Shown here: in pieces, positions 3,497 through 30,570 of the stretch
Numbering within the stretch: the stretch's first letter is position 1
Layout: every line of letters starts with the position of its first letter
Source of the DNA: Cyclobacteriaceae bacterium
Lineage (GTDB): Bacteria; Bacteroidota; Bacteroidia; Cytophagales; Cyclobacteriaceae
Length of the DNA: 39,355 nucleotides
Direction of reading: 5' to 3'
NCBI GenBank assembly: GCA_013373335.1
Contig: JABXHZ010000196.1
Location: 1-39,355 of the forward strand
The notes under the pieces: generated by a model
Database searches by the model: none
Told to the model about the DNA's origin: nothing
The model's input: only the letters and a program-made list of their open reading frames with translations
Made by a program: the position numbers and the translations under genes

Positions 3497-4882
3497 ATGA
3501 TACGTATGCGATTTCTTTTCCCACTGTTTTTGTCTTTCATGATCTTAGGATCTTGCACAAGCCAAAAAGAAGACAAATCAGAGGAATGGAGGACTTTATT
3601 TAATGGAAAAGATCTTTCTGGTTGGAAGGCGGTAGCGGGAGATGCTACTTTTTCAGTAGAAAACGGTGAAATCATAGGTACGGCCGAAGAAGGATCCCCT
3701 AATACCTTCCTTATCACAGAAGAGATTTTCGGGGATTTTATATTAGAATTAGAATTGAAGGTCGAGCATATTTCCTCCAATTCAGGCATAATGGCCAGAG
3801 GTCAATTTGATCCAGCTGCTCGAGACGGTAAAGGACTAGTATATGGATACCAAATAGAAGCTGATCCAACTGATCGAGCCTGGTCAGGTGGAGTGTACGA
3901 TGAAGCACGTCGAGGTTGGTTATATCCGTTGGATTTAAATCCAGAAGCTAAATCAGCATTCAAATTGGGAGAATATAATCAATACCGAATCGAGGTAATT
4001 GGGGATGAAATCAAAACCTGGATTAATGGTCAAGAAGTAGCTTATGTTGTTGATGATACCGATCGGAATGGATTTATTGGCCTCCAAGTCCATAGTATAC
4101 AAAATCCAGAAGATGCCGGAAGAAAGACCTACTTTCGAAATATTCGAATCAAAACAGAAAATCTTGATCCTCAACCTTTTAATACTGATATTTTCGTTGT
4201 AAATAACCGAAAAAACGAGTTAATAGATTATGAGATTGCAAATGGTTGGAGGTTATTGTTCAACGGAAAAGATTCTGAAGGATGGGTTGGAGCTTACAAA
4301 GACACTTTCCCTGATTTTGGCTGGAGTGTAACAGATGGTATTTTATCCATCGCTTCCTCTGGAGGTGGAGAATCATCTTTTGCCGGAGACATAGTCACGA
4401 AAGAAAAATTCAGCGCTTTTGATTTAGCTTTTGAATTTAATCTTTCGGAAGGGGCAAATAGCGGTGTAAAGTATTTTGTCACTTTATCAGAAAACAATTC
4501 AGGTTCAGCTATTGGTCTAGAATATCAAATTTTGGATGACGAAAGACACCCGGACGCCAAAATGGGCAGAGACGGAAACAGGACATTAGCTTCTTTGTAT
4601 GACCTTATCACCGCACAAAAACAAAGCAGATTTGTGAAAAAGCCTGGAGAATGGAACAAAGGAAGAATTGTAGTGTACCCGGATAATAAAGTAGAACACT
4701 ATCTGAATGGAGTAAAAGTCCTTGAATACGTTAGAGGCTCCCAGGAATTTCGTGATTTGGTAGCCTTATCTAAATATAAAATTTGGGAAAACTTTGGAGA
4801 GGCACCTGAGGGTCATATTCTCCTTCAGGATCACGGAGATCAAGTCAGCTTCAAAAACATCAAAATCAAAACCTTAAATTAA
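3497..4882 (+). CDS. Lipoprotein with two tandem DUF1080 (3-keto-disaccharide hydrolase / LamG-like) domains
   Basis: Signal peptide with lipobox FMILGSC. Two internally homologous segments: EEWRTLFNGKDLSGWKA... and NGWRLLFNGKDSEGWVG.... Confidence 0.88.
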   Translation: MIRMRFLFPLFLSFMILGSCTSQKEDKSEEWRTLFNGKDLSGWKAVAGDATFSVENGEIIGTAEEGSPNTFLITEEIFGDFILELELKVEHISSNSGIMARGQFDPAARDGKGLVYGYQIEADPTDRAWSGGVYDEARRGWLYPLDLNPEAKSAFKLGEYNQYRIEVIGDEIKTWINGQEVAYVVDDTDRNGFIGLQVHSIQNPEDAGRKTYFRNIRIKTENLDPQPFNTDIFVVNNRKNELIDYEIANGWRLLFNGKDSEGWVGAYKDTFPDFGWSVTDGILSIASSGGGESSFAGDIVTKEKFSAFDLAFEFNLSEGANSGVKYFVTLSENNSGSAIGLEYQILDDERHPDAKMGRDGNRTLASLYDLITAQKQSRFVKKPGEWNKGRIVVYPDNKVEHYLNGVKVLEYVRGSQEFRDLVALSKYKIWENFGEAPEGHILLQDHGDQVSFKNIKIKTLN

Positions 4883-4893
4883 CCCGGCAAATC

Positions 4894-6243
4894 ATGAGTA
4901 AGCAATCCAGAAGAACCTTTATCAAAAAAAGTACGGCAGCAGGTATCGGAGTATCTGCTTTAGGTGCCATTGGTTTTTCAGCAAAATCCTATGGTAGAAT
5001 CCTCGGCGCAAATGATAGACTGAATGTGGCTATCGCAGGATTGGGAAGAAGACTTGGGGCTTTTTATGAGCCAATTGGGTTGAAGTCCAGTAATGTCCAA
5101 CTCCTCTATTTATGCGATGTAATGGACAAGCAATTAACTCGTGCAGCAGAAAATTTCTCCAACCACATTGACTATCAACCCAAACTTGAAAAAAACATAC
5201 TTAAAGTATTAGAAGACAAAGACTTAGACGTTTTAATTAATGCTACTCCGGACCATTGGCATGCTCCAGGTACCTGGCTTGCTTTGGATCATGGAAAACA
5301 CGTCTACGTTGAGAAACCCTGCTCCCACAATCCCCGTGAAGGAGAGCTTTTAATTGCATTGCAGAAAAAATATGGCAAGGTGGTGCAAATGGGTAATCAA
5401 CAACGTTCAGCTCCGGAAAGCCGGGAAATCATCAAAGCTATTCATGATGGTGCGATTGGAAAAGCTTACAAGGCTGTGGCTTTTTACAGTAATGCTAGAG
5501 GACCGGTAGTCAACCCATCTCCTGCTCCAATTCCTGAAGGACTGGATTGGGAACTTTTCCAAGGTCCAGCTCCTCGAAAACCCTACATGCATGATACTTG
5601 GGATTACAATTGGCATTGGTATGGCTGGGATTATGGCACGGCTGAAACGGGAAATAATGCAACCCACGAGTTGGATGTGGCGCGCTGGGCGTTGGAAGTA
5701 TCATATCCAAGCCAGGTGCTGGTCGATGCCGGAAAGTATCATTTTGTAGATGATGGATGGACCATGTATGATACAATGGAGGCAACCTTCAAATTTTCCA
5801 ATGGGTCTACTATCGTTTGGGATGGAAAGAGCAGGAATAATTACAACACCTATGGCGCAGATCGTGGTACCATTATTTTTGGTTCCGAAGGAAGTGTTTT
5901 CGTCAACCGAAATGGATACAAGCATTACGATCGAACAGGAAAGTTGATCAAAGACAGCTCCTCTGCCGGAAATGAAGCTGGTACTGCTCTTGGAGGAGGC
6001 GGAGATATGAGTACTCGACATGTAGTCAACTTTTTCAATGCCGTTCGAGGAATGGAAAAGCAAAACTCTAATATTGAAGAAGGTGCCATTAGTACTTTAC
6101 TTTGCCATCTCGCTAATATTTCCTATCGAACAGGTGAATCACTTACCTGCGACAGTTCCAGTGGCCGAATTACCAATTCCAAAAAAGCGATGGAGCTTTG
6201 GTCTAGGGAATATGAAAAAGGCTGGGAACCTCCAAAAGTCTAA
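4894..6243 (+). CDS. Gfo/Idh/MocA family oxidoreductase with Tat-type signal
   Basis: N-terminus SRRTFIKKSTAAGIGVSALGAIGF; Rossmann segment LNVAIAGLGRRLG; INATPDHWHAPGTWLALDHGKHVYVEKPCSHN. Confidence 0.92.
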   Translation: MSKQSRRTFIKKSTAAGIGVSALGAIGFSAKSYGRILGANDRLNVAIAGLGRRLGAFYEPIGLKSSNVQLLYLCDVMDKQLTRAAENFSNHIDYQPKLEKNILKVLEDKDLDVLINATPDHWHAPGTWLALDHGKHVYVEKPCSHNPREGELLIALQKKYGKVVQMGNQQRSAPESREIIKAIHDGAIGKAYKAVAFYSNARGPVVNPSPAPIPEGLDWELFQGPAPRKPYMHDTWDYNWHWYGWDYGTAETGNNATHELDVARWALEVSYPSQVLVDAGKYHFVDDGWTMYDTMEATFKFSNGSTIVWDGKSRNNYNTYGADRGTIIFGSEGSVFVNRNGYKHYDRTGKLIKDSSSAGNEAGTALGGGGDMSTRHVVNFFNAVRGMEKQNSNIEEGAISTLLCHLANISYRTGESLTCDSSSGRITNSKKAMELWSREYEKGWEPPKV

Positions 6244-6251
6244 TTTTAAAG

Positions 6252-6285
6252 AGGCCGTATTCGAAAAAGAAAACGGCCTTTTTTG
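6252..6285 (+). terminator. Intrinsic terminator after the Gfo/Idh/MocA gene
   Basis: AGGCCGT-...-ACGGCCT stem followed by a T run. Confidence 0.8.
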
Positions 6286-6324
6286 AGTTTAAAAACTTAT
6301 CAACAGTTTCGCCATTAATTAGAT

Positions 6325-6339
6325 CTTTTGCATCAAAAG
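6325..6339. repeat. 15-bp inverted repeat upstream of uxaC
   Basis: CTTTTG-CAT-CAAAAG, perfect 6-bp arms, ending 8 bp before the ATG at 6348. Confidence 0.6.
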
Positions 6340-6347
6340 CAGTAGTT

Positions 6348-7787
6348 ATGAGTCATTTCTCATCCAAAAATTCATTTATTAATGAGGATTTTTTGCTTCA
6401 ATCAGAGTTTGCTAGAATACTCTATCATGACTATGCAAAAGACCTCCCCATCATAGATTACCACAATCATCTACCTCCAAGTGAGATTCGTTCCAATCGG
6501 GCATTTGGAACTATTTCGCAAGCATGGCTTGCAGGCGACCACTACAAATGGAGAACGATGCGCACCCTAGGCATATCCGAAAAATATATAACCGGAAAGG
6601 CATCCGATAAAGAAAAGTTTGAAAAGTGGGCGTTTACCGTTCCTTATACTGTCCGAAACCCACTTTACCACTGGACTCATTTGGAATTACAGCGCTACTT
6701 CGGAATCGAAGAATATCTTTCTGAAAAAAGTGCAACCAATATTTACGAATCATGCAATGATGCCTTATCCACAGAGGAGTATAGGACGCAAGGATTACTC
6801 AAAAAAATGAAAGTGGAAGTTGTCTGCACCACCGATGACCCCATCGATTCCTTAGAGGATCATTGGGGGTTTCATAGGGAAAATGCCGATCTTCTTCTCT
6901 TTCCTGCTTTCCGTCCCGACAAGGCTTTTGCTGTAGAAAATCCTGAAACCTATACGGATTATCTAAACAAATTGGAGCTTGCATCCAAAATTTCAATTCA
7001 AAGCTACGAGGACCTTTTAGAGGCGCTTAGAAAACGAATTGAGTTTTTTCACCAATCAGGTTGCAGACTCGCTGACCATGGCCTAGAACAATTGTATTTC
7101 TTTGAAAGGGATGAGTTTAATATTGAAGAACTATTCAAAAGAGTGCATTCCAAGAAAAATCTAAATACTAAAGAGATTCATTTTTTCAAATTTAAAACCC
7201 TTCAGATCCTTTGCAGAGAATACCATTCACGTGGATGGGTTCAGCAATTCCATTTAGGTGCTTTGCGAAATACAAATACCCGGAAACTTCAAGAACTTGG
7301 ACCGGATACAGGCTATGACTCTATTGGGGATTTTGATCAGGCGCGGGCTTTAGCTGGCTTCCTAAATTCATTGGACCAAACAGACCAATTATGTAAAACC
7401 ATTCTCTACAACCTTAACCCCCGGGACAATGAGGTTTTTGCTACCATGACAGGGAATTTCAATGATGGAAGCGTGAAGGGAAAACTCCAGTTTGGTTCGG
7501 GTTGGTGGTACTTAGATCAAATTGACGGAATGGAAAAACAACTCAATGCCCTATCCAACATGAGCATTCTTTCTTGTTTTATAGGCATGTTGACTGATTC
7601 TAGAAGCTTCCTTTCATTCCCAAGACACGAATATTTCCGTCGAATCCTATGCAATCTTGTTGGAAACGATGTACAAAAAGGGCTTTTGCCTGCTGATGAA
7701 AAATGGCTTGGTAAAATCGTCGCCGATATCTCCTACTACAATGCTAAAAATTACTTTGACTTTTCACCTGATAATTTCCAAGTTTGA
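6348..7787 (+). CDS. uxaC: Glucuronate (uronate) isomerase
   Basis: 479 aa; LPIIDYHNHLPPSEI, VVCTTDDPIDSLEDH, GWVQQFHLGALRNTN, MLTDSRSFLSFPRHEYFRRILC are UxaC signature regions. Confidence 0.95.
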   Translation: MSHFSSKNSFINEDFLLQSEFARILYHDYAKDLPIIDYHNHLPPSEIRSNRAFGTISQAWLAGDHYKWRTMRTLGISEKYITGKASDKEKFEKWAFTVPYTVRNPLYHWTHLELQRYFGIEEYLSEKSATNIYESCNDALSTEEYRTQGLLKKMKVEVVCTTDDPIDSLEDHWGFHRENADLLLFPAFRPDKAFAVENPETYTDYLNKLELASKISIQSYEDLLEALRKRIEFFHQSGCRLADHGLEQLYFFERDEFNIEELFKRVHSKKNLNTKEIHFFKFKTLQILCREYHSRGWVQQFHLGALRNTNTRKLQELGPDTGYDSIGDFDQARALAGFLNSLDQTDQLCKTILYNLNPRDNEVFATMTGNFNDGSVKGKLQFGSGWWYLDQIDGMEKQLNALSNMSILSCFIGMLTDSRSFLSFPRHEYFRRILCNLVGNDVQKGLLPADEKWLGKIVADISYYNAKNYFDFSPDNFQV

Positions 7788-7789
7788 TT

Positions 7790-8608
7790 ATGACCTCTAA
7801 ATTATTTGACATTTCAGACAAGCGGATCGCATTTTCAGGTGCTACGGGAGTCTTGGGAAAAGCCATCAGCCTTCACCTTGCTTCAGAGGGAGCTGAGCTT
7901 TTGATTCTTGGTAGAAATGCAACCAAAATCGAAGAGCTAATCCGAGAAATAGAAAAAACCGGTGGAAAGGCTTCAGGATATACATGTGATGTGACGGATT
8001 GGGAAAGCGTTTCCCAGGCCGCAAACCAAATTGAAGCTGATTATGGGTCAATCGATTTGCTAATCAATGCGGCAGGTGGAAATATGCCCGGAGCAGTAAT
8101 TCGTCCTGATCAAGATTTTCTGGATTTAGATCTTTCTGCTTTAAAGCAGGTTATGGATTTAAATTATCTCGGTTCGGTATTACCCGTCAAAGCTCTGCTA
8201 CCTCTGATGCTAAAAAACCAAAAAGGAAACATTCTAAATATCAGTTCTATGGCTGCATCCAGACCTATGACTAGAGTCATGGGCTATGCATCTGCTAAAG
8301 CGGCCATTGATAATTTTACAAAATGGCTTGCTGTAGAACTCGCCACGAAACATGGCCCTCATTTTAGGGTAAATGCCCTTGCACCAGGCTTTTTCCTTAC
8401 AGAGCAAAACAGGAGCCTTTTGACTGAATCAGATGGTTCCTTAACTACCCGAGGAAATCAAATCATTACCCATACCCCCATGAATCGTTTTGGAAAACCA
8501 GAAGATTTATTAGGCGCAGTTCAATGGCTTTGCTCCGATGCTTCTTCATTTGTTACAGGGACAATCGTAGAAGTAGATGGAGGATTCAGTGCCTATTCAG
8601 GGGTATAA
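7790..8608 (+). CDS. SDR family oxidoreductase, probable fructuronate/mannonate reductase
   Basis: [11 protein letters not shown] nucleotide-binding motif, NAAGGN, YASAK catalytic motif. Lies between uxaC and uxuA. ATG 7790 preferred over TTG 7784. Confidence 0.88.
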
Positions 8609-8634
8609 TCTATTATTGTAAAGCAATAAAACGT

Positions 8635-9813
8635 ATGAAACCAAGAATGGAACAAACCATGCGCTGGTACGGACCAAATGACCCGGTCAGCCTTCGGGAC
8701 ATCCGACAATCAGGAGCCACCGGCGTGGTCACTGCTCTTCATCACATCCCAAATGGAGAAGTTTGGCCTATCGAAGAAATCAAAAAACGGAAAAAACTCA
8801 TTGAAGATGAAGGCTTGAGCTGGTCCGTAGTTGAATCTGTCCCGGTGCACGAACAAATAAAAACCCGCACAGGAGACTATAAACTCTTTATTGAAAACTA
8901 TAAGCAAACGCTTAGAAATTTAGCCTCAGAGGGCATATTTACCGTTTGCTACAACTTCATGCCCATTTTAGATTGGACACGCACCGAACTTTACAAAGAG
9001 TTACCAAATGGGGCAAAAGCTCTTTTTTATGAAAAAAAAGCAGTCCAAGCTTTTGACCTATTTATCCTAAAAAGGAAGGAGGCATTTGAAGAATATTCTC
9101 CGGAAGAAATCCAAGAACTGCAACAGTATTACGATGCGCTGACTCCGGAAAAAAAACAACTAATTATCGACAATATTTTGAAAGGCCTTCCAGGGTCCGA
9201 GATTGGATACACCTTGGAGGAATTTGGAGAAATGCTCAAAACCTACGAAGGCATAGATGCCACCAAACTTCAGGAGCATCTGAGGCTATTTCTTGATGCA
9301 ATTGTTCCCGTGGCAGAGGAAGTTGGTGTTTACTTGACCATACATCCAGACGATCCTCCTTTTTCACTTTATGGTTTACCTAGAATCGTCTCTACTGCAG
9401 CGGATGCCAGAAGAATCATTCAGGACAATCCTAGTCCGCATAATGGTCTTTGTTTTTGCACGGGTAGCTATGGTGTGCGCTCGGACAATGACCTTATCGC
9501 AATGATCCGCGAATTTGGGGATCATATTAATTTCATTCATTTAAGAAGTACTAAGCGGGATGAGGAAGGTAATTTCATTGAAGAAAATCATTTGGATGGA
9601 GATGTTCCTATGGCCGCGGTAGTTCACGAATTACTTAAGGTCCAAGAAAAAAGAGGAAAGCGCATCCCTATGCGTCCTGATCACGGACATCAGATGTTGG
9701 ATGATTTAGGAAAAAAGACCAATCCGGGATATTCAGCGATTGGAAGGTTAAAAGGCTTAGCAGAAATACGGGGGATTGAAGAAGCAATTCTGTATCTTAA
9801 ATCCAATGACTGA
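8635..9813 (+). CDS. uxuA: Mannonate dehydratase
   Basis: [65 protein letters not shown]. Listed ORF starts at 8524 inside the SDR gene; ATG 8635 is the plausible start. Confidence 0.95.
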
Positions 9814-14896: not shown

Positions 14897-15604
14897 TTAC
14901 GCTTTTTTCTTCAAGCTATAAAGGTAGGGAGCTTTATGTGAGCCACCGGCGTAAAGCTTCTCATGCCTTTCAAGTATGCCTAAGCTGAGCATTTTCCGTT
15001 GGAAATTAGCCCTGTTTAGCTTTTCCCCCAAAATCGCTTCATATACCTGCTGAAGTTCTTTCATGGTAAATCGTTCTGGGAGGAGATTTACGGAAAGTAG
15101 CTTTTGGTCGAGATGCGTTCGGAGATGATCCAATGCCTTTTTAACGATAAAATTGTGATCAAAAAGTAAATCAGGTATTTCATCAACCGAATACCAATTT
15201 ATAGAATCCGAAAAAGCATCAGGGGTTGGTTCTACTTTATCATAATCGATCAAAGCATAATAGCCTATCGAAATGAAACGGTCCAACAGCCAATGATCTT
15301 TGGGAAGATCTTCTTGATGGGCGGAAAGAATTTGTTTCATAATATCCGGACGGACTCTCTCGATGGATCCAAAGGTGTAAAACTGTTCCAAAAAAATCTG
15401 ATCCAAGCCCGTTCGTTCCAAAAGCCCTCGCTTCACAGCCTCATCAAGAGTTTCATTCACCTTAACAAATCCACCTGGTAGCGCAAGCCATCCGGTTTTA
15501 TGGTACTCGATGAGAAGAATTTTAAGTTTTTCACCAGAAAAACCAAAAATGACGGAATCATAAGCTATATGCGGGAGAAAACCCGTAGTCTCCAAATTGG
15601 CCAT
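14897..15604 (-). CDS. Nudix-domain transcriptional regulator (NrtR/AraR-like), degenerate Nudix box
   Basis: N-terminal Nudix fold (LALPGGFVKVNETLDEAVKRGLLERTGL) plus a C-terminal winged-helix-like segment (FTMKELQQVYEAILGEKLNRANFQRKMLSLGILE). Confidence 0.85.
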   Translation of the reverse strand: MANLETTGFLPHIAYDSVIFGFSGEKLKILLIEYHKTGWLALPGGFVKVNETLDEAVKRGLLERTGLDQIFLEQFYTFGSIERVRPDIMKQILSAHQEDLPKDHWLLDRFISIGYYALIDYDKVEPTPDAFSDSINWYSVDEIPDLLFDHNFIVKKALDHLRTHLDQKLLSVNLLPERFTMKELQQVYEAILGEKLNRANFQRKMLSLGILERHEKLYAGGSHKAPYLYSLKKKA

Positions 15605-15655
15605 GGAATTTAAAATTTACCCAAATAAATAGGATTTCAGACAAAATGCAATTAC

Positions 15656-15678
15656 TATTGTTTCAATCAGAAACAATA
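15656..15678. promoter_or_regulatory. 23-bp palindrome, candidate operator of the adjacent Nudix-family regulator
   Basis: TATTGTTTC-AATCA-GAAACAATA: perfect 9-bp arms, 5-bp spacer, in the divergent regulator/carboxylesterase interval if the esterase starts at ATG 15691. Confidence 0.65.
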
Positions 15679-15690
15679 AATCCAGCAAGA

Positions 15691-17334
15691 ATGAGAAAGA
15701 AGGGCCTAGTGTTAATCCTTGTGCTTACTCAAATGACAATTCACCTTCAAAGTTATAGTCAGGAAAATTACGGTTTTCCTGTTCAAAAAAGCATCAAAAC
15801 TGGAATGATTGAGGGAATTTATGATACACAAACCGATGTACAAAAATTCTTGGGGATTCCTTATGGACAGCCTCCTATTGGACCATTGAGATGGAAAGCA
15901 CCATTGCCTGCTAAAAATTGGGATGGCATTAAGGAAACGAAAGCTTTTGGGCCAAGAGCTATTCAGGCACCTGTATTTGGGGATATGAATTTCAGATCAA
16001 ATGGAATTAGTGAAGATTGCCTCTACCTGAATGTCTGGACTCCTGCGAAAAGAAATGAATCAGGACTTCCGGTGCTAGTCTACTTTTATGGAGGAGGGTT
16101 TGTTGCTGGAGATGGAAGCGAACCTCGGTATGATGGCGAAAGTATGGCTCAAAAAGGAATTGTAGTCGTAACAGTCAATTATCGTTTAGAGTTATTCGGG
16201 TTTTTTGCGCATCCTGAACTATCGGCTGAAACGGATTACAAGGGTTCTGGGAATTATGGTCTTATGGATCAGAATCTAGCCTTGAAATGGGTAAGAGAAA
16301 ACATTTCATCTTTTGGAGGCGATCCTCAAAAAGTAACCATTGCAGGAGAATCTGCTGGATCCATATCAGTAAGTTATCAGATGGCTTCCCCTCTTTCAAA
16401 AGATCTAATCGCAGGAGCTATAGGAGAAAGTGGTGCAGGTATTAACCCTACCCTTGCCCCAGTTAAGCTGGAGGAGGCAGAAAAGACCGGAAAAGAATTT
16501 GCCGAAAAGGCTGGAATATTTTCCTTAGCCGAGTTGAGAAAGCTCTCAACCGAAGCGCTATATGAAATATATCAGGAATCTGGAAGATTTGGTTTCCCTG
16601 TTGTAATAGATGGATATTTTATTCCTAAAACCCTTCCAGAAATTTTTGAGGCCAAAGAACAAGCACAGGTTCCTCTTTTGGCGGGCTGGAATTCAGCAGA
16701 AATTCCAGGCATGGCTTTCATGCAAGGAAAGCCTTATACCAAAGAAGCCTTTATTCAAAAAGTAAAAGAAGTCTACCCCGAAAACTGGGAAGAGGTTTTA
16801 GCACTTCACCCCCATGAAACAGCACAAGAAGTGGAACAATCCGCAACTGATCTGGCTTCAGATCGATTTATTGCCTACAGCACTTGGAAATGGATTGACC
16901 TTCATTCAAAAAACTCCATTCAGCCCGTTTATCGCTACCTCTACAGCAAGTTAAGACCTGCTTTGCGCGACCCTAATCTTATTCCTGGTTTAGCTGGAGG
17001 AACTATGGAAAGAAATGGACAGGAAGCTCCCAAGGCAATTGGTGCTCCTCACGCTTGCGAAATTGAGTATGCCATGGGAAATCTTTCTATTGTAAATGAT
17101 TATGCATGGGAAAAGGAGGATTATAAGGTATCAGAAGTTTTCCAAAATTATTTCGCCAACTTCATTAAAACAGGTAATCCTAATGGCGAGAACCTACCGT
17201 TATGGGAAAAGATAGAGGTAAATTCCAACAGCCCGAGTTTTATAAATATTGATGTAGAAACCAGACTGGAAAAGTCTACCGTTGAGGAACGCTATCATTT
17301 TCATGACCGCTTTTATGGAAATACCAATAAATAA
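15691..17334 (+). CDS. Type-B carboxylesterase/lipase family protein, secreted
   Basis: Signal-peptide-like N-terminus from ATG 15691; SEDCLYLNVWTP, GESAGS nucleophile elbow, GAPHACEIEYAMGN His region. The listed ORF starts at 15646. Confidence 0.92.
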   Translation: MRKKGLVLILVLTQMTIHLQSYSQENYGFPVQKSIKTGMIEGIYDTQTDVQKFLGIPYGQPPIGPLRWKAPLPAKNWDGIKETKAFGPRAIQAPVFGDMNFRSNGISEDCLYLNVWTPAKRNESGLPVLVYFYGGGFVAGDGSEPRYDGESMAQKGIVVVTVNYRLELFGFFAHPELSAETDYKGSGNYGLMDQNLALKWVRENISSFGGDPQKVTIAGESAGSISVSYQMASPLSKDLIAGAIGESGAGINPTLAPVKLEEAEKTGKEFAEKAGIFSLAELRKLSTEALYEIYQESGRFGFPVVIDGYFIPKTLPEIFEAKEQAQVPLLAGWNSAEIPGMAFMQGKPYTKEAFIQKVKEVYPENWEEVLALHPHETAQEVEQSATDLASDRFIAYSTWKWIDLHSKNSIQPVYRYLYSKLRPALRDPNLIPGLAGGTMERNGQEAPKAIGAPHACEIEYAMGNLSIVNDYAWEKEDYKVSEVFQNYFANFIKTGNPNGENLPLWEKIEVNSNSPSFINIDVETRLEKSTVEERYHFHDRFYGNTNK

Positions 17335-17360: not shown

Positions 17361-19628
17361 TTATGTGTTTTTCGTTCCTGCCAGTACCATTTTCAAAGTT
17401 CCATAATCGTACTTGCCTTTGAAATGATCCCTTAACTCTTTGACTCCTTTAAATTTTTCTAAACTCCCCAAAATCTCCAAAATCACTTCACTTGGTAAAC
17501 AGTCTTCTAAATCAATCCTACCGAATGCAATGCCCTCTGCCAAATGAGATTTAATTGTAGATTCGGCAAGACCTCTTTCCAAAGAAATTTCAGCTATGGA
17601 CTTTCCTGACTCAAAAAGCTCCATTGTAATTTCAAGAGAATCTCCTTTTTGTCTTTTTGGTTTTGGACCTCCTGTTTTTCTTCTTCCTGTTTTTGATTTG
17701 ATATCTTTCAACCGCTCCAAAGCTTCTTCTTTAGCTTGGTCTATGAATTGTTTTCGGACTTTTAATAAATCTCCTTCAATCGCATTCATTATGGAGGGAA
17801 TTCCACCTAAAAAAAACTCTTCCAAAATCATTCGGATTTTTTTGATTTGGACAATTTTCTGGAAAAGAAGCTGCTCCAAAGATTCCAATCCCTGCAAATA
17901 ATTTTTTGTTTTGGAAAAATGGGATACCATCGCCATCTGCTCAATCAGACGCTTTAAAATCTCCAAAAACTTTTCTTCGTAATAATTCGAGCCCTTTTGA
18001 AGGCGCTCAAAAAACATATCCTTGTTTTCTGTAACTTGAAGATGGAGAAGTTGATTTTGAAATCGGCTGGAGTTTCCCAATTCAGCTTGGACTTGTTCTT
18101 TGATCCAAGGAATACTGGACTGCATACTTTCATCGACAAACTCAAAACTAGACTCCTGCTCCTTCTGAAAATAGACCAATTCTTTCAGGAAAGGCTCGAA
18201 ATCAAAGATTTCTCTGATGATTTTCTGCTGATAGCGCTCCCGGTGGATTTCCAATAGCTCTTGAAGCCTTTTTTGAGCTTTTGCAGAAAGCGAAAAATCA
18301 ACCACAGCCCGGTCTGAAAACAATAAATCAGCTTGAACCCTACTTCTAAGAATCAGTCCATCCAAACTTCTAAGTCGACTAAGAGCCACATACACCTGCC
18401 CAGGTGCAAACGCCTCCCCCACATCAATAATTGCCTTATCAAAGGTCAATCCCTGACTTTTGTGAACAGTCACAGCCCAAGCTAATTTGATAGGGAAATG
18501 GCTGAAAGTTCCAATCACTTCCTCATCCAATTCCTTGTTGGAGGGATTAATTACATATTTTTTATTTTCCCATATTTCCTTTCGCAAGGAAAAATCACCC
18601 CTTTCCCCATCCATCTTGACGGAAATCGAGTCTTCATCCAATGCAGTTACCGTAGCTAGTTTACCGTTAAAATATAGCCCCATTCCAGAGCTGTCATTTT
18701 TTATAAACATAATCCTTGCTCCAACTCGAAGTTCCAGTTTCTCGGGAATTGGATACAACGATTCAGGAAAATCTCCCCATATCTCGGCTTGGTAAAATGA
18801 AGACCCTCCAGGCAAATTTTGAAGTTCCTTGGTGTTAATCTGTTCCGCCTTGTAATTATGGGTTGTAATGGTAATACATTCGCTAATGGATTGAATTTCT
18901 TTCTCGGACTTGTAGTGCTTATTTAACAGCTTTATATCCTCTGAGGTGACTTGATTTTCCCTAAGGTGATTGAGAACTTGAATGAAATCATCCTCCTCCT
19001 GACGAAAAATTTTATCCAACTCTAAATAAACCATCCCGGATTGCTGAAGTGCTTTTGCTTCAAAAAAATGCATGGAAGAATAAAATCTTCGAAGAATCTG
19101 CCATTCCTGGTCTTTCACGATCGGAGGAAGTTGATAAAGATCTCCAATCAACAAAATCTGCACTCCTCCAAAAGGATCCTGAAAATTCCCTTTGACACTC
19201 TTCATCCGATAATCTATGGCATCTAGAATATCGGCTCGTAACATACTTACCTCATCAATAACTAAAAGATCCACCGACCGAAGTACGTTCTTTCTCACTT
19301 GATTTAAAGGATGCTTTCGGGCCAAGGTGCTTTGAGTGAAGAATCCATACTGATCTGTGAAATTTCCTTCTGGTTCCCGCACCGGCAAAAAACTTCCCAA
19401 AGGAAGTAAAAATTGAGAATGGATGGTCACTCCTCGAGCATGCAAAGCAGCAATACCTGTAGGAGCAACTACGATGTAGTTTTTGTAAGTATGATCAGCA
19501 AGTTGCCGTAAAAAAGTCGTCTTTCCTGTACCTGCCTTACCTGTCAGAAAAATTGGTGCTGCAGTTTGATTTATAAATTTTGCAGCTAGTTTTAATTTAT
19601 CCGTAGAAAAATCTTGCATCATAGTCAT
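17361..19628 (-). CDS. Pif1/RecD-like DNA helicase with C-terminal helix-turn-helix (RecQ C-terminal-like) region
   Basis: Walker A LTGKAGTGKTTFLRQL, LLVIDEVSMLRADILDAID, AVTVHKSQGLTFDKAIID, VYVALSRLRSLDGL; C-terminal ELFESGKSIAEISLERGLAESTIKSHLAEGI. Confidence 0.9.
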   Translation of the reverse strand: MTMMQDFSTDKLKLAAKFINQTAAPIFLTGKAGTGKTTFLRQLADHTYKNYIVVAPTGIAALHARGVTIHSQFLLPLGSFLPVREPEGNFTDQYGFFTQSTLARKHPLNQVRKNVLRSVDLLVIDEVSMLRADILDAIDYRMKSVKGNFQDPFGGVQILLIGDLYQLPPIVKDQEWQILRRFYSSMHFFEAKALQQSGMVYLELDKIFRQEEDDFIQVLNHLRENQVTSEDIKLLNKHYKSEKEIQSISECITITTHNYKAEQINTKELQNLPGGSSFYQAEIWGDFPESLYPIPEKLELRVGARIMFIKNDSSGMGLYFNGKLATVTALDEDSISVKMDGERGDFSLRKEIWENKKYVINPSNKELDEEVIGTFSHFPIKLAWAVTVHKSQGLTFDKAIIDVGEAFAPGQVYVALSRLRSLDGLILRSRVQADLLFSDRAVVDFSLSAKAQKRLQELLEIHRERYQQKIIREIFDFEPFLKELVYFQKEQESSFEFVDESMQSSIPWIKEQVQAELGNSSRFQNQLLHLQVTENKDMFFERLQKGSNYYEEKFLEILKRLIEQMAMVSHFSKTKNYLQGLESLEQLLFQKIVQIKKIRMILEEFFLGGIPSIMNAIEGDLLKVRKQFIDQAKEEALERLKDIKSKTGRRKTGGPKPKRQKGDSLEITMELFESGKSIAEISLERGLAESTIKSHLAEGIAFGRIDLEDCLPSEVILEILGSLEKFKGVKELRDHFKGKYDYGTLKMVLAGTKNT

Positions 19629-23232: not shown

Positions 23233-25431
23233 ATGATTTTCAAAAAACTCTGGAATGCTTTCCTTCGCATTTTTGGCAAAGAAACATCCATCCCAGCCCA
23301 TTCACCATCTCATGAACCCCTCCTTAAAACTTCAAATAAAGAAGTTAAAGGAAGTTTAAAAGTAATTGAAGGAATACTTCCAACTGACATTTACGGAGTT
23401 TTCAATGTCTCACTTCCAGTAGGGTCCGTTAATTCTGATGGGCTCCCCTTCCCTGAAAAAACAAAAGAAGGAAAACATAATCCAGAGTTTGGATCTCCGA
23501 TAATGAATGGTGACGGAATGGTGATTCAGGTGAACTTCAACAATCCTGAACCAACCATCCAAAGCAAAATCATGAAAACCCCTTGTTATTATGCTGATTT
23601 GGCAACCAAGCAAGGAACTCCTCATCATGGATTGATGGGTTTTCACAATATGGGTATCACCCGAATGAGCATGGTCTTTGGTGCCAGGAATGAACTGAAT
23701 ACTTCCACCCAACCTGTAAAATTCAAGGGTCAAAAAAAAGGAAGCCTAATGGCAACTTATGATGTAGGACGTCCTTATTTGTTGGATTCCGAATCTTTGG
23801 AATTGATTACTCCTATGGGAAAATGCAGCGAATGGATGACAGCCGAACCCCCTATGGTACCCTGGCCCTTTGGAATTGTACAGACTTCAGCCCATCCCAT
23901 CTTCGATCCGGTTACGCAGGAAGTTTTTACCGTCAACTATTCGAGAGATAAAGGTTCCTTCACCCATTTGGAACAAACTATTCACCATCTGAAGAACAAT
24001 AGGGAATCCTTTAAAGACAAACTTGAAAAACTGGCACATGAACTGGTTGATCATGAAGATGACAAACATGTTCATCACCAAGTGACCAACTTTTTCCAGG
24101 ATTTGAATACACATGTGGAAGGCAATCCACACGATCCTGACGAACCCAAAGGAGATGTTTTCATGTATTTATTGGCTTGGAATGGAGAAGGCCCTGTGGT
24201 TCATTGGGATCTTGAAGATCAATTTGGGGACAAACTGGCGATCTATGAATGCATGCACCAAATGGGAGTTACAGAGGATTTTATTATTCTTTCCGACTGC
24301 TCCTTCAAATTTGCATTGGATTTACTATTTGACAATCCTTTCCCAGAAAGTAAAATAATCGAGCGCTTAATCAGGAGATTGGGTACTGTAAAAATGGAAC
24401 CATTTACCACGGTTTATTTAGTCAAGCGGGCAGATTTGGATCCTAAAAAAGAAAAAGTAACGGCCTATAGACTTGAAAGTCCTATCCCTCTAGAAACAAT
24501 TCATTACAGCTGTGATTATTCTAACCCTGACGGTGTCATCACGCTGTATGGGGTCCACAATGCTGCTACCTGTATTGCAGAATGGGTACGAACTTTTGAC
24601 AAAAGAGCATTAGACAAGAAACCCGTTGATCCCGATTATTATTCTCTTTTTGCGGTAGGAAGCATGGATATAAGCCGCTTGGGAAAATGGAAAATTGATT
24701 CCAAAACTCTCAAAGTCCTTGAAGAAGAAAGTCAGGTTTATGAAGATCCTGGAAAATATAAGGAAGATCATTTGGGCCCAAACACATGGACTATTGTTTT
24801 ATATACTTATCGAGATATTCTTTCTGCTGAAAAAACAGTCCCAACCATCAAACAGCTTTGGTATGTCAGTGATGGAACCGAACCGAACCTTTTGACTGAC
24901 TTTGTCTATAAACTGTATAAAAAATATCCTCACCGAAAGCTTTCCCTAGAGGAAATTAAGGATGCAACAAGGCGGGAACTTCCATTTAGTGTAACTCGCG
25001 TGAATTTGGAAACCATGGAGCCGGAGGATTATTTCCAATGCGAGAAAAAAACCTATATCCGAGGAATTCATTTTATTCCAAAGAAAAGCCCAACTCCCTC
25101 AATTCCAGAAGAATTAGATGGATATCTTTTTTGCCCAACTCAGGTGGGACACCAACAATCTGATGGAGATTGGAAATATACAAGTGAGTTTTGGGTTTTC
25201 GATGCCACCTCCATTGCTCAAGGACCAATCTGCAAACTGGCAAACGACGATGTCAAATTTGCCTTTACACTTCATACTTCATGGATGCCGGAAAGCGGCC
25301 CATCTGATCAAAGTTTCAGGATTTCGACTCAAGATGACTATGATGAGGTTATCAATAATCTTGGAATTAAAGCCGATCAAAAATTTTTGAAGCAATTCTT
25401 TGAAGAAAATGTATACCCTCATTTCAAGTAA
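23233..25431 (+). CDS. Divergent carotenoid cleavage oxygenase (RPE65/CCO superfamily)
   Basis: VIEGILPTDIYGVF, NGDGMV, and four candidate Fe-binding His contexts: SAHPIFDP, CMHQMGVTEDFIIL, IHYSCDYSNPDGVI, LHTSWMP. Confidence 0.78.
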   Translation: MIFKKLWNAFLRIFGKETSIPAHSPSHEPLLKTSNKEVKGSLKVIEGILPTDIYGVFNVSLPVGSVNSDGLPFPEKTKEGKHNPEFGSPIMNGDGMVIQVNFNNPEPTIQSKIMKTPCYYADLATKQGTPHHGLMGFHNMGITRMSMVFGARNELNTSTQPVKFKGQKKGSLMATYDVGRPYLLDSESLELITPMGKCSEWMTAEPPMVPWPFGIVQTSAHPIFDPVTQEVFTVNYSRDKGSFTHLEQTIHHLKNNRESFKDKLEKLAHELVDHEDDKHVHHQVTNFFQDLNTHVEGNPHDPDEPKGDVFMYLLAWNGEGPVVHWDLEDQFGDKLAIYECMHQMGVTEDFIILSDCSFKFALDLLFDNPFPESKIIERLIRRLGTVKMEPFTTVYLVKRADLDPKKEKVTAYRLESPIPLETIHYSCDYSNPDGVITLYGVHNAATCIAEWVRTFDKRALDKKPVDPDYYSLFAVGSMDISRLGKWKIDSKTLKVLEEESQVYEDPGKYKEDHLGPNTWTIVLYTYRDILSAEKTVPTIKQLWYVSDGTEPNLLTDFVYKLYKKYPHRKLSLEEIKDATRRELPFSVTRVNLETMEPEDYFQCEKKTYIRGIHFIPKKSPTPSIPEELDGYLFCPTQVGHQQSDGDWKYTSEFWVFDATSIAQGPICKLANDDVKFAFTLHTSWMPESGPSDQSFRISTQDDYDEVINNLGIKADQKFLKQFFEENVYPHFK

Positions 25432-28400
25432 ATGTTAAAAGAAATTGGTGATATCCATTCCCTAAAGCTGCTTTATGAAAGCAATCGAAGCAAACTCTTC
25501 ACAGCAAGTAATGAAGAGGGTGAAAATATATTGATTAAAGAGGACCTGACAGGTGATTTGGGACGGTTGCATAATGAAGCGATGATCGCCAATCGCTCAT
25601 CCCATGCTGGTTTTAATCCTCAAGTAATTCTTTACAATAGTCGGGTAGTGATGGTTCGGGAATTTTTGAAAGGAAAATCCCTAAATGAAATCATTGAAAA
25701 AAAGCCTCTACCGATCGAAAGCTTTATTCATTTTGCAATAAAAATTTGCCATCAATTACAGGATATTCATAGTAGTGGAACCCTCCACAACGACCTCAAC
25801 CCCAGGAATATCATCATTGATGAGGAAATAGATTCCTGCCGATTAATTGACTTCGAATTTGGGACATCCATTCAAAATTTAGAATTACAATTTGAACCGC
25901 TCAGCACCATATCTGGCACCATCGAGTACATTTCTCCGGAACAAACAGGGAGAATGAATAGAAAGCTCGATCAGCGAAGTGACTATTATTCCCTGGGTGC
26001 TACCTTCTATGAAATGCTAACCGGACAGCCTCCTTTCGAGGGCGAAGATGTTTTAGCAATCATTCATTGCCATTTGGCAATTCAGCCGATTCCTCCTAGA
26101 AAGCTGAATCCAAACGTCCCTAAGTTTTTAGACAAAGTTGTTCTAAAGCTTCTGGCAAAAAATGCGGAGGAACGTTATCAATCTATTCCTGGACTTTTAG
26201 CGGATTTGAATCTTTGTGAGCATCAGCTGAAAAAGAATGGCACAATTCAGGATGGAGAACCGGGTCTGACAGACATCGCCTCCAAGCTTCATATTAGTCA
26301 GCATCTTTATGGACGAGATAATGAAGTAAGTATTTTAAAAGCCCGCTTTGCAGATGCTTGTCTTGGCAGAAAAATACTGATGACGATTGGAGGGTATAGT
26401 GGAGTTGGAAAAAGTGTCCTTTGTCAAGAACTCTACAAGGAAGTATCTGTGCAAAACGGTCTATTCCTATCCGGAGCCTTTGATGTCCTGGATCGACAGA
26501 CACCTTATTTGGCCTTTATCAAGGCATTCCGACAGTTTGCGGATTGGTTAATGGCCGAGTCACAAGAAGTACAGCAATACTGGGCTAAAAAACTAAATCG
26601 AGACTTAAAGGGACTAGGCCAAATTATTGTGGATATGGCGCCTAAACTGCGTTTCATTCTTCCTCCACAGCCTGAATTAGTAAGCCTAACGGGATTTGAA
26701 AATCAACAGAGGATCCAGTTTACCATCAATGCTTTCCTTCAAAGCCTTGCTTCGGAAGACACCCCGTTGGTTCTGTTTCTCGATGATTATCAATGGGCCA
26801 ATGATGCTTCTATCGAATTGCTAAAAAGTCTCTTCAATAATTACAATTTGACCCATTTGATGGTTTTGGTAGCCTATCGGGATAATGAAACTCCAGAATT
26901 CCACCCTTTTTCCCAAGCCATCCGAACGATCAAATCCAATAATCTCGATGAAAGCCACCTTCTGATTGAAGAAATTCATTTACAGCCTTTGAGTGAGCGG
27001 CATGTTGGGATTTTGATTTCAGACACCCTTAAACTCGAATCACTCGAAGTCGCGGAATTAGCTGAGTTGATTTACTCCAAAACCAAAGGAAATCCGTTTT
27101 CAATCAATAAGTTTTTGGAGTCTTTATACAAAAACAAGCTGCTTGAGTTTGATTATACCAAAAACAAATGGACCTGGAGTATCAAAAAAATCCAGTCTCA
27201 GAATTTAAGTGATGACATTGTAGAATTACTTCTTCTTCGAATTCGTGAGCTACCTGAAAATGCACTACAGGTCATCAAGGCTGCTTCAGTATTCGGGATA
27301 GAATTTTCTCTGCATCAATTATCCATTATTACCGGTAAACCTACAACTGAGATTCATTCTTTCCTTTGGCCATTGATCCAGGAAGGATCTTTAATTCCAA
27401 TGGGAAATGATTATAAATTTATTCCTGAATTCTACAGCGAAACAAATCGGGATATTCATTTTCGTTTTGCCCATGCAAGAATTCAACAAGCCGTTTATGC
27501 CCTGTTGGAGTCTTCAGAAAAATCACTCTTTCACTTTGAGGTTGGACAAATCTATCTGCAAAAATTAAATGAGCAAGAGATAGCCGAAAGGCCTATTGAA
27601 ATCGCCCTTCATTATTCTTTGGGCTATGATGAAATTTCACGATCAAGCAACAAGGAAGAGATTGGATGGCTACTCCTCAAAGCAGGAAAGAAATCTGCAG
27701 AATCCGCCTCATTTGAAGGTGCTTTGACTTTCACCGAAATCGCATTTGAGCTTCTTGGTGATAAGCTGAAGAAATCTGAAAAATTTCAACTGCTACTAGA
27801 AGGATTAGAATACTCCTATCTGTTGAAGGATACCGAAAAGCAGGAAAAATTTGAAAAATTAGCCTTCGGAGAGGCTGAAACACTAATCGACCGTGTACTG
27901 GTCAACGAAGTCATTGTCCGGTGCTTAGGCTTTGCCAACCTACCAAAAAAGGCAGTGGATATCGCCCAAAAAGCATTGTTAGAAGTTGGAATCCATATTC
28001 CTGAAAAAGCGAGCAAATTACAGGTCATGTATCATGCGATCATGATTCAAGTGTTGATCCCCCGAAAGAAACTGCTCACAATCAAGGATATTCCAGAGAC
28101 TAACGATCCCTTAGCCCTGGCAACATTTAAGCTATTGCTAGCTGCACTTTCATCTTACTTTTTCGTCAACATTTCTACCTATCCCATTTTGATTTTTCAA
28201 ATGCTTAAACTGACGATAAAGAAGGGAATGGCTCCAGAATCGGTTGTAGGAATTGCTTCTTATGGATTGATCTTGACAACTGCCCTTAAAAAACCGGCAG
28301 ATGGTTATGAAGTAGTAAATAATTCCTTGGAATTATTGAATAAGCCGGATCGAATGAAGTATGCCGCCACCATCAATATGATGTATGTGTCGTTTACCTC

Positions 28401-30570
28401 CCACATCAAAAACAATATTGTGGATAGTATCCCGCTTACCTATGAAGGATACTTGAAAGGATTGGAATATGGAAACATGGAGTATGCCTGCTGGAATTTA
28501 TTTTTCAGTACGGCTATCAAATTTCATGTAGGAAATGATTATAAAGCGCAACTTGAAGAGGCTATAGAAACCGAAAAGTTTTCCATTCAATATAATTTTT
28601 CAAATCAAGCAGCGATCACCCAAGTAATTGAAAAGTGCTTGGCAGTACACCTTGCTGATGAAAAAGACCTTGAAAGCGAATTGAAAAATCTTCCTAAAAA
28701 ATTGGAAGAGAATTTCAGAACTGCCGAAAAAGAATCCAATCATATCTACCTCCTATCCTACTATGGATACATAGGAGCTACTCACCTGTTTTTCGGGAAA
28801 TACAGTGAAGCATTTGAGTATTATGAACATTTCCCCCTTCATATCAAGGACCAACCCAACTCATTTTTCATTAATTATTACAAAATAAACCGAGCTATCA
28901 ATGCAGTCTTTTTGATGAATCAAATCCGCGATGAAAAATTCCGAGGAGTCAATTTGAAAGATATTATTAATGAAACAATCTCGGAACTTAAATACCTATC
29001 CAAATTAAATCCGGTTTCTTATGGTCCCTACATGTCATTGTTAAGGGCCGGAATGAACTATCAAACAAATCAAGAATTGGATGTCCAATTGATGGAAAAC
29101 AGTATTACCCAACTGAAAGATCTACATCATCCAAGATATTACATCCTATTTGCAGAATTACTAAGCGTCCTTTTCAAATATGAGAAAAATCCCCGACACG
29201 AATATTGGAGAAATCAAGCCGCTTCAGAGGCAAGAAGAATAGGTGTAGAAGCAAAATCGATCCGATTGCTTCAAGAAGAAGATGAGGGAAATATTCAAGC
29301 TACTGAAAAGGAGAAAATTAAAAGAGGTTCTGTTTCTTCCAGTGAGATTGGACAAATCGACACAAAAACCTTGGTTAAAACCATGGAAGCTTTGGTGAGC
29401 GAAATAAAGTTAGAGGCGCTGCTTGAAAAACTCATTACCTATGCCATGGAAAATACAGGCGCCCAAGAAGGACATTTTCTTATCAACCGAGAAGGAAAAT
29501 GGATTTTGGAGGTTTCAACCATAGCTAATCACCAGTTACATACCCATTTCCCAAAGGTAGAACTTGAAAAAACAGAAGAGGTCAGCGCAGCAATCATCAA
29601 TTATTCCAAAGCAAGCAAAGAACCTCTGCTAATCGAAGATGCCTTGCTTTCCCAGCCTTTCGATACCGATCCCATCGTTCGGGAGAAATCACTTCGATCT
29701 GTTTTGTGTATTCCGTTTATTAACCAGTCAAAGATTTCAGGGATCATTTATCTCACACATTCCCTCAATAAAAGCGCCTTTTCAAAGGAACAGATCTCCC
29801 TTATGCGATTAATGGCAGCTCAAATCGGCGGCGTGATTGAAAATGCCCTTCTTTATGAAAACATGGAGCGATTAGTTGCAGAAAGAACTAGAGAGTTAGA
29901 AGAGGAAAAGCAAAAAAGCGACTCCCTATTGCTCAATATTCTTCCTAAAGAGATTGCTTCTGAGTTGATTCAAAAAGGAAAAGCATCTGCCAGACTTCAT
30001 GAGAAGGTTTCGGTAATGTTTGTTGATATCAAGGATTTTACAAGGATTGCTCAGCGTATGAACCCAGATGAATTGGTTCAAAATCTTCAAGTCTTCTTTA
30101 CTAAGTTTGATGAAATCATGGACAAGTATGGCATCGAAAAGATAAAAACCATTGGGGATGCATATATGGCTGCAGGTGGAATCCCAAGTCCTTCAGAAGA
30201 CCACGCTTATAAAATCACAGAGGCAGCTCGGGAAATACTTTGTTTTTCTGATGAATTCAATAAGAAAAGCGCTTTGGAAAACAAGCCTATTTTCAATGTT
30301 AGAATAGGAATTCACATTGGACCGGTGGTTGCCGGAGTAGTCGGTCATCGTAAGTTTGCCTACGATATTTGGGGAGATACGGTAAACATTGCTTCCCGAA
30401 TGGAAAGTAATTCAGAAACTGGAAAAATCAATGTTTCTGAAGATTTCTATAAAACCATCAAGGATAAATACAGCTGCGAATTCCGAGGTGAAATAGACGT
30501 AAAAAATAAAGGGATGATGAATATGTACTTTATTCACCACCCCAAAAATCCTGAGCATGTAGAAACTTAA
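25432..30570 (+). CDS. Multidomain signalling protein: Ser/Thr kinase-like - AAA ATPase - helical/TPR-like - GAF - class III adenylate/guanylate cyclase
   Basis: Kinase-like HNDLNPRNIII, SGTIEYISPEQTGRMN; Walker A GYSGVGKS; Walker B VLFLDDYQWAN; GAF-like 29370-29870; cyclase MFVDIKDFT, IKTIGDAYMAAGG, FAYDIWGDTVNIASRME. Confidence 0.93.
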   Translation: MLKEIGDIHSLKLLYESNRSKLFTASNEEGENILIKEDLTGDLGRLHNEAMIANRSSHAGFNPQVILYNSRVVMVREFLKGKSLNEIIEKKPLPIESFIHFAIKICHQLQDIHSSGTLHNDLNPRNIIIDEEIDSCRLIDFEFGTSIQNLELQFEPLSTISGTIEYISPEQTGRMNRKLDQRSDYYSLGATFYEMLTGQPPFEGEDVLAIIHCHLAIQPIPPRKLNPNVPKFLDKVVLKLLAKNAEERYQSIPGLLADLNLCEHQLKKNGTIQDGEPGLTDIASKLHISQHLYGRDNEVSILKARFADACLGRKILMTIGGYSGVGKSVLCQELYKEVSVQNGLFLSGAFDVLDRQTPYLAFIKAFRQFADWLMAESQEVQQYWAKKLNRDLKGLGQIIVDMAPKLRFILPPQPELVSLTGFENQQRIQFTINAFLQSLASEDTPLVLFLDDYQWANDASIELLKSLFNNYNLTHLMVLVAYRDNETPEFHPFSQAIRTIKSNNLDESHLLIEEIHLQPLSERHVGILISDTLKLESLEVAELAELIYSKTKGNPFSINKFLESLYKNKLLEFDYTKNKWTWSIKKIQSQNLSDDIVELLLLRIRELPENALQVIKAASVFGIEFSLHQLSIITGKPTTEIHSFLWPLIQEGSLIPMGNDYKFIPEFYSETNRDIHFRFAHARIQQAVYALLESSEKSLFHFEVGQIYLQKLNEQEIAERPIEIALHYSLGYDEISRSSNKEEIGWLLLKAGKKSAESASFEGALTFTEIAFELLGDKLKKSEKFQLLLEGLEYSYLLKDTEKQEKFEKLAFGEAETLIDRVLVNEVIVRCLGFANLPKKAVDIAQKALLEVGIHIPEKASKLQVMYHAIMIQVLIPRKKLLTIKDIPETNDPLALATFKLLLAALSSYFFVNISTYPILIFQMLKLTIKKGMAPESVVGIASYGLILTTALKKPADGYEVVNNSLELLNKPDRMKYAATINMMYVSFTSHIKNNIVDSIPLTYEGYLKGLEYGNMEYACWNLFFSTAIKFHVGNDYKAQLEEAIETEKFSIQYNFSNQAAITQVIEKCLAVHLADEKDLESELKNLPKKLEENFRTAEKESNHIYLLSYYGYIGATHLFFGKYSEAFEYYEHFPLHIKDQPNSFFINYYKINRAINAVFLMNQIRDEKFRGVNLKDIINETISELKYLSKLNPVSYGPYMSLLRAGMNYQTNQELDVQLMENSITQLKDLHHPRYYILFAELLSVLFKYEKNPRHEYWRNQAASEARRIGVEAKSIRLLQEEDEGNIQATEKEKIKRGSVSSSEIGQIDTKTLVKTMEALVSEIKLEALLEKLITYAMENTGAQEGHFLINREGKWILEVSTIANHQLHTHFPKVELEKTEEVSAAIINYSKASKEPLLIEDALLSQPFDTDPIVREKSLRSVLCIPFINQSKISGIIYLTHSLNKSAFSKEQISLMRLMAAQIGGVIENALLYENMERLVAERTRELEEEKQKSDSLLLNILPKEIASELIQKGKASARLHEKVSVMFVDIKDFTRIAQRMNPDELVQNLQVFFTKFDEIMDKYGIEKIKTIGDAYMAAGGIPSPSEDHAYKITEAAREILCFSDEFNKKSALENKPIFNVRIGIHIGPVVAGVVGHRKFAYDIWGDTVNIASRMESNSETGKINVSEDFYKTIKDKYSCEFRGEIDVKNKGMMNMYFIHHPKNPEHVET

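Follow-up and report, generated by a model that had tools for sequence, protein, structure and literature searches.

A conserved palindrome beside an NrtR/AraR-type regulator gene points to an esterase-centred regulon in Bacteroidetes

Is the 23-bp palindrome between a gene for a Nudix-type regulator and a carboxylesterase gene the operator of that regulator? The question arises from a preliminary description of the window, by which we mean the whole 39,355-nucleotide stretch of DNA analysed here. That description proposed the palindrome as the binding site of an NrtR-family regulator controlling the secreted esterase, and held the annotated esterase start to be too early. The following features are involved:

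14897 to 15604, minus strand: NrtR/AraR-type transcriptional regulator with a Nudix-like effector domain (degraded catalytic box) and an NrtR winged helix, from Pfam and structure matches
15656 to 15678, no strand: predicted 23-bp palindromic operator, TATTGTTTC-AATCA-GAAACAATA, conserved across Bacteroidetes upstream of the NrtR/AraR-type regulator family
15691 to 17334, plus strand: type-B carboxylesterase (COesterase), predicted to be secreted, from Pfam; start at 15691 preferred over 15646
15646 to 15690, plus strand: in-frame N-terminal extension MQLLLFQSETINPAR, probably untranslated, which spans the operator and is shared with the two closest relatives only

The palindrome has two perfect arms of 9 bp each and a 5-bp spacer. 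It lies 52-74 bp upstream of the regulator ATG (15604, minus strand) and 12 bp ahead of the ATG at 15691; its sequence, position and distances as first described were all correct on re-checking. No other site in the window matches it at up to 3 mismatches (shuffled sequences give an expectation of 0.02), and it is the sole exact copy in the genome, a 3.34-Mb draft that is 85.5% complete.

Conservation of the palindrome was assessed at related loci. Named orthologues of the regulator place the genome in the genus Algoriphagus and extend the family over Cytophagia, Flavobacteriia, Chitinophagia and Saprospiria. Same-genus genomes keep both the regulator-esterase pair and the palindrome. Across Bacteroidetes, 55 of 80 NrtR-like loci carry the core ATTGTNNCN5GNNACAAT, at no more than one mismatch, in the 250 bp upstream of the regulator, compared to 0.05% of shuffled upstream sequences, although the motif-bearing sequences are related and not independent, so that the counts overstate the statistical weight. 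Most of the information in the motif lies in ATTGT, C, G and ACAAT; a TA outside one arm is near-invariant as well. At the motif-bearing loci the COesterase gene is mostly divergent, and at two further loci (L237 and L244) the motif lies approximately 340-360 bp from the regulator and adjoins a carboxylesterase gene. Some carriers of the regulator have no operator-like site, locus L224 and genome G065 among them; L224 also has no divergent carboxylesterase. Conservation in relatives was thus observed both within the genus and across the phylum, and comparative genomics bears out the proposed role: the palindrome is very probably the binding site of the neighbouring regulator.

More distant NrtR-like regulators (L268, L270-L273, L257-L265, L275 and L280) carry related palindromes, for example ATTGTATC-N5-GATACAAT, and next to some of them lie genes for ThuA/GSDH proteins or for a small protein similar to the target at L102, suggesting that these loci may encode sister regulators with related regulons.

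Palindromes are bound by many bacterial factors, and linkage is no proof of identity. A different transcription factor sharing the intergenic region could therefore be the one that binds, but we regard this as very improbable, since motif and regulator are found together across Bacteroidetes, also at loci with a different neighbouring gene, the dyad geometry fits the AraR operator, and motif density is near background where the regulator is missing. The densities were obtained by scanning Algoriphagus genomes with a slightly generalised pattern at one mismatch and with the reversed pattern as a control. The 42 regulator-bearing genomes (196 Mb) contained 181 sites (0.92/Mb) and 21 control matches (0.11/Mb), and the 19 regulator-less genomes (56 Mb) contained 10 sites (0.18/Mb) and 3 control matches (0.05/Mb). 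Site density is hence about five times higher with the regulator than without it; the genome sets share ancestry, which makes these numbers descriptive. Outside coding cores lay 89 of the 116 sites examined (own-promoter sites left out), compared to one of the 10 sites in regulator-less genomes, where the other nine were inside. The motif is rich in A and T, and part of the listed sites are noise: 27 of 122 examined fall within genes. In three regulator-less genomes (G018, G064 and G075), one target carboxylesterase has no close homologue and matches alpha/beta-hydrolases only weakly. Such a homologue (62% identity) is present in a fourth, G023, and a search of the surrounding 4.7 kb turned up nothing that matches the motif core at zero or one mismatch.

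A blind scan for perfect matches covered 148 genomes from across the phylum; seven had hits, three of them Algoriphagus. The 145 other genomes held five sites in four genomes. Four of these sites lie just upstream of a gene whose translation has a Nudix/NrtR-like N terminus, two of them with a divergent COesterase-like gene, and the fifth is inside a gene.

Which genes would such sites control? The 89 sites outside coding cores stand upstream of carboxylesterases (21), CE1-type or putative esterases (14), ThuA or GSDH proteins (10, plus 4 shared with GH3), CitMHS transporters (4), amidohydrolases (4), TIM-barrel isomerase-like proteins (2) and other genes (29); one site has no nearby gene start. 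The ThuA class includes ThuA-glucose/sorbosone-dehydrogenase-cytochrome proteins. In the genome studied here, three two-mismatch sites precede a carboxylesterase gene, a divergent GH3/ThuA pair and a CE1-type esterase gene. The genome-wide scan suggested in the preliminary description yielded recurrent sites before esterase and sugar-enzyme genes in relatives, next to the single exact copy in its own genome. Control of the esterase by the regulator is supported by comparative genomics, with the qualification that this esterase is one among several predicted targets. No gene of arabinose catabolism was found in the target classes identified, and none of xylose catabolism in the target classes or regulator neighbourhoods that were examined. 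A secreted-looking protein of 124-126 amino acids with no Pfam match recurs beside operator sites or NrtR-like genes (L102, L151, L159, L180 and L280).

The same contig carries a uronate/3-keto-sugar catabolic locus (3497-9813), which encodes a two-domain 3-keto-disaccharide hydrolase, a GFO/IDH/MocA oxidoreductase, UxaC (glucuronate isomerase) and UxuA (mannonate dehydratase); the motif search of the window found no operator copy within this cluster. Other genes in the window encode a PIF1-like helicase with a C-terminal HTH_40 domain (17361-19628, minus strand) and a 1712-amino-acid protein with protein kinase, AAA ATPase, GAF and guanylate/adenylate cyclase domains (25432-30570), directly preceded by an RPE65-like carotenoid-oxygenase gene (23233-25431).

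With the annotated start at 15646, the palindrome would be esterase coding sequence. The window and the two closest relatives do have an open frame from 15646 onward. However, a COesterase could be recognised near the site in 44 relatives, and in 42 of them it starts past the palindrome, mostly with an ATG 32-44 bp from its left edge (35 bp for the ATG at 15691), and a hydrophobic segment, judged by eye to resemble a signal peptide, starts at 15691. A coding palindrome is hard to reconcile with this and we give it hardly any credence. Because nearly all of these relatives start past the palindrome and the extension from 15646 is limited to the two closest of them, 15691 is the preferred start, in agreement with the earlier view that the annotation begins too early.

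Promoters in Bacteroidetes follow the consensus TAnnTTTG at -7 and TTTG near -33 (PMC7366714). Two candidates were placed around the operator:

15635 to 15663, plus strand: candidate esterase promoter (putative, weak consensus), TTT at 15635-15637, then after about 18 nt the -7-like TATTGTTT (15656-15663) or TACTATTG (15653-15660)
15623 to 15653, minus strand: candidate regulator promoter (putative and weak, by eye and from partial TTG conservation), ATTG just outside the palindrome, then TTTATTTG 19 nt on

The candidate esterase promoter overlaps the operator. In relatives, the TA at 15653-15654 is near-invariant and TTT is most often found at the corresponding spacing; in the esterase promoter of the window itself, the -33 equivalent is this weaker TTT and the -33/-7 match is weak. 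A TTG stands 18-19 nt before the operator arm (TTG-N18/19-TATT) at 15 of the 19 COesterase and CE1 target sites near a start codon, so that the arm would occupy the -7 position in these two target classes. Repression through promoter occlusion is therefore the likeliest mode of action that we infer.

The same operator could also serve a regulator that acts mainly as an activator, or that has opposite effects at its two divergent promoters: the palindrome is just upstream of the likely -33 region of the regulator promoter, and some targets (ThuA, CitMHS and part of the COesterases) have their start codon approximately 100-156 bp past the site. Activation nevertheless appears unlikely to us, as a dimer bound over the -7 position of the COesterase and CE1 targets would block the polymerase, and AraR of Bacteroides thetaiotaomicron (BtAraR) is a DNA binder that is released by its effector (PMC4666351).

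Another idea is that the palindrome is no protein-binding DNA site and works instead as an RNA hairpin, an attenuator or stability element in the esterase mRNA leader. The plus strand does fold stably (9-bp stem, -10 kcal/mol, z = -3.3), and variable arm positions are complementary more often than in shuffles, a test that cannot tell DNA from RNA because both readings predict symmetry. Yet the likely transcription start would fall inside the stem, the distance of the motif from start codons ranges from 23 to 156 bp, the motif also stands between divergent genes, at many target sites a change in one arm is not compensated in the other (TATTTT...ACAATA), and motif occurrence tracks the regulator gene. 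In spite of the stable fold, position, occurrence and uncompensated changes make a hairpin function exceedingly improbable, and we rejected it in favour of a DNA operator.

The regulator protein itself matches PF00293 (Nudix, 38.7 bits) and PF21906 (NrtR winged helix, 76.2 bits), both above cut-off, and the AraR_C winged helix PF19368 with a lower score than PF21906 (32.8 bits, cut-off 23.8). The top PDB matches of its AlphaFold2 model (pLDDT 83.8) are AraR and NrtR; by sequence and predicted fold, the best solved relatives are the AraR structures of B. thetaiotaomicron, followed by NrtR of Shewanella oneidensis. It is the only NrtR_WHD protein found in its genome (85.5% complete). With the NAD-type NrtR equivalog NCBIfam NF050029 it scores 103.9 (cut-off 400), and no NAD metabolism genes were found among the linked or predicted target genes examined. 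The proposed link between a Nudix-type regulator and the palindrome is supported by comparative genomics, with the refinement that the regulator is nearest to the sugar-responsive Bacteroidetes AraR branch and not to NAD-type NrtR.

Its Nudix box is impaired: REXXEE reads RGxxER, with Gly60, Glu63 and Arg64 invariant in 54 of 54 orthologues. Since two of the three Nudix glutamates are replaced in all of these, the domain likely has a sensor role. All 54 orthologues have Tyr34 where AraR has the arabinose-contacting Arg34, which argues that the effector is probably other than L-arabinose; Arg83 and His150, equivalents of the AraR residues Arg86 and His131 that likewise contact arabinose, are invariant. 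So are Arg198 and Arg203, which align with AraR Lys179 and Lys184, while the position of AraR Arg180 is mostly Ala, which fits a different sequence preference.

From these comparisons we propose that the regulator binds the palindrome as a homodimer, between the divergent promoters of its own gene and the carboxylesterase gene. The apo-regulator would most likely block RNA polymerase at the esterase promoter and probably tune its own gene. The catalytically dead Nudix domain would sense a small effector, probably a sugar or sugar derivative and not L-arabinose, upon which the DNA would be released. The same regulator would control unlinked site-bearing genes for other carboxylesterases, CE1-type esterases, ThuA-glucose/sorbosone-dehydrogenase-cytochrome proteins and GH3 enzymes. 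We consider this explanation as a whole, with operator, blocked promoter, sugar-like effector and co-controlled unlinked targets, highly probable.

The predicted operator, its link to the regulator and the recurrent esterase and sugar-enzyme sites point to a gene-control circuit of known type that has not yet been described. The family, the architecture and the logic of the operator are already known; the regulator group, its motif and the esterase-centred regulon appear to be new, as none of them, nor any NrtR-esterase regulon of Bacteroidetes, was found in the literature searched, mostly outside subscription papers. One may speculate further about a global regulon throughout Bacteroidetes, in which a Nudix-fold sensor of a sugar-like effector represses secreted esterases and periplasmic oxidative sugar enzymes, and the operator arm doubles as the atypical -7 element of the phylum; we offer this tentatively and lean somewhat against it. 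For a group of secreted carboxylesterases and ThuA/sugar-dehydrogenase proteins, whose physiological role is mostly obscure, the analysis provides an operator, a regulator and a candidate regulon that can be tested, and it would extend the sugar-sensing NrtR branch past gut Bacteroides. The identity of the effector would indicate the natural substrate of these esterases.

Like NrtR of S. oneidensis (PDB 3gz5, 3gz6) and NAD-type NrtR, the regulator has the same domain organisation and, by prediction, a palindromic operator near its own gene; it differs from the NAD type in its linked and predicted genes and in its score far below the NF050029 cut-off. With XylR of B. thetaiotaomicron (BT0791), compared by description only, it shares the Bacteroidetes NrtR branch and a predicted link to sugars, but XylR is reported to be clustered with xylose catabolic genes (PMC3878776, PMC4666351), which are not linked here. 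BT2160, linked to a 3-keto-glycoside operon, was dropped as a relative because it is SusR-like according to PMC3878776. AraR of B. thetaiotaomicron (BT0354; PDB 5bs6, 5dd4, 5deq) is approximately 30% identical. It differs in Arg34, which contacts arabinose O4, in the intercalating Arg180, in its half-site (GTGT, here TTGTnnC) and in its target, the ara operon, in place of esterases and oxidative sugar enzymes. The two share the Nudix-like and winged-helix architecture and fold, the impaired Nudix box and several predicted unlinked carbohydrate-related targets. The AraR operator oligos contain GTGT-N7-ACAC (PMC4666351) and the present site reads GTnT(C)-N7-(G)AnAC; both place a G at +/-7 relative to the dyad, which an identical dimer geometry would lead one to expect.
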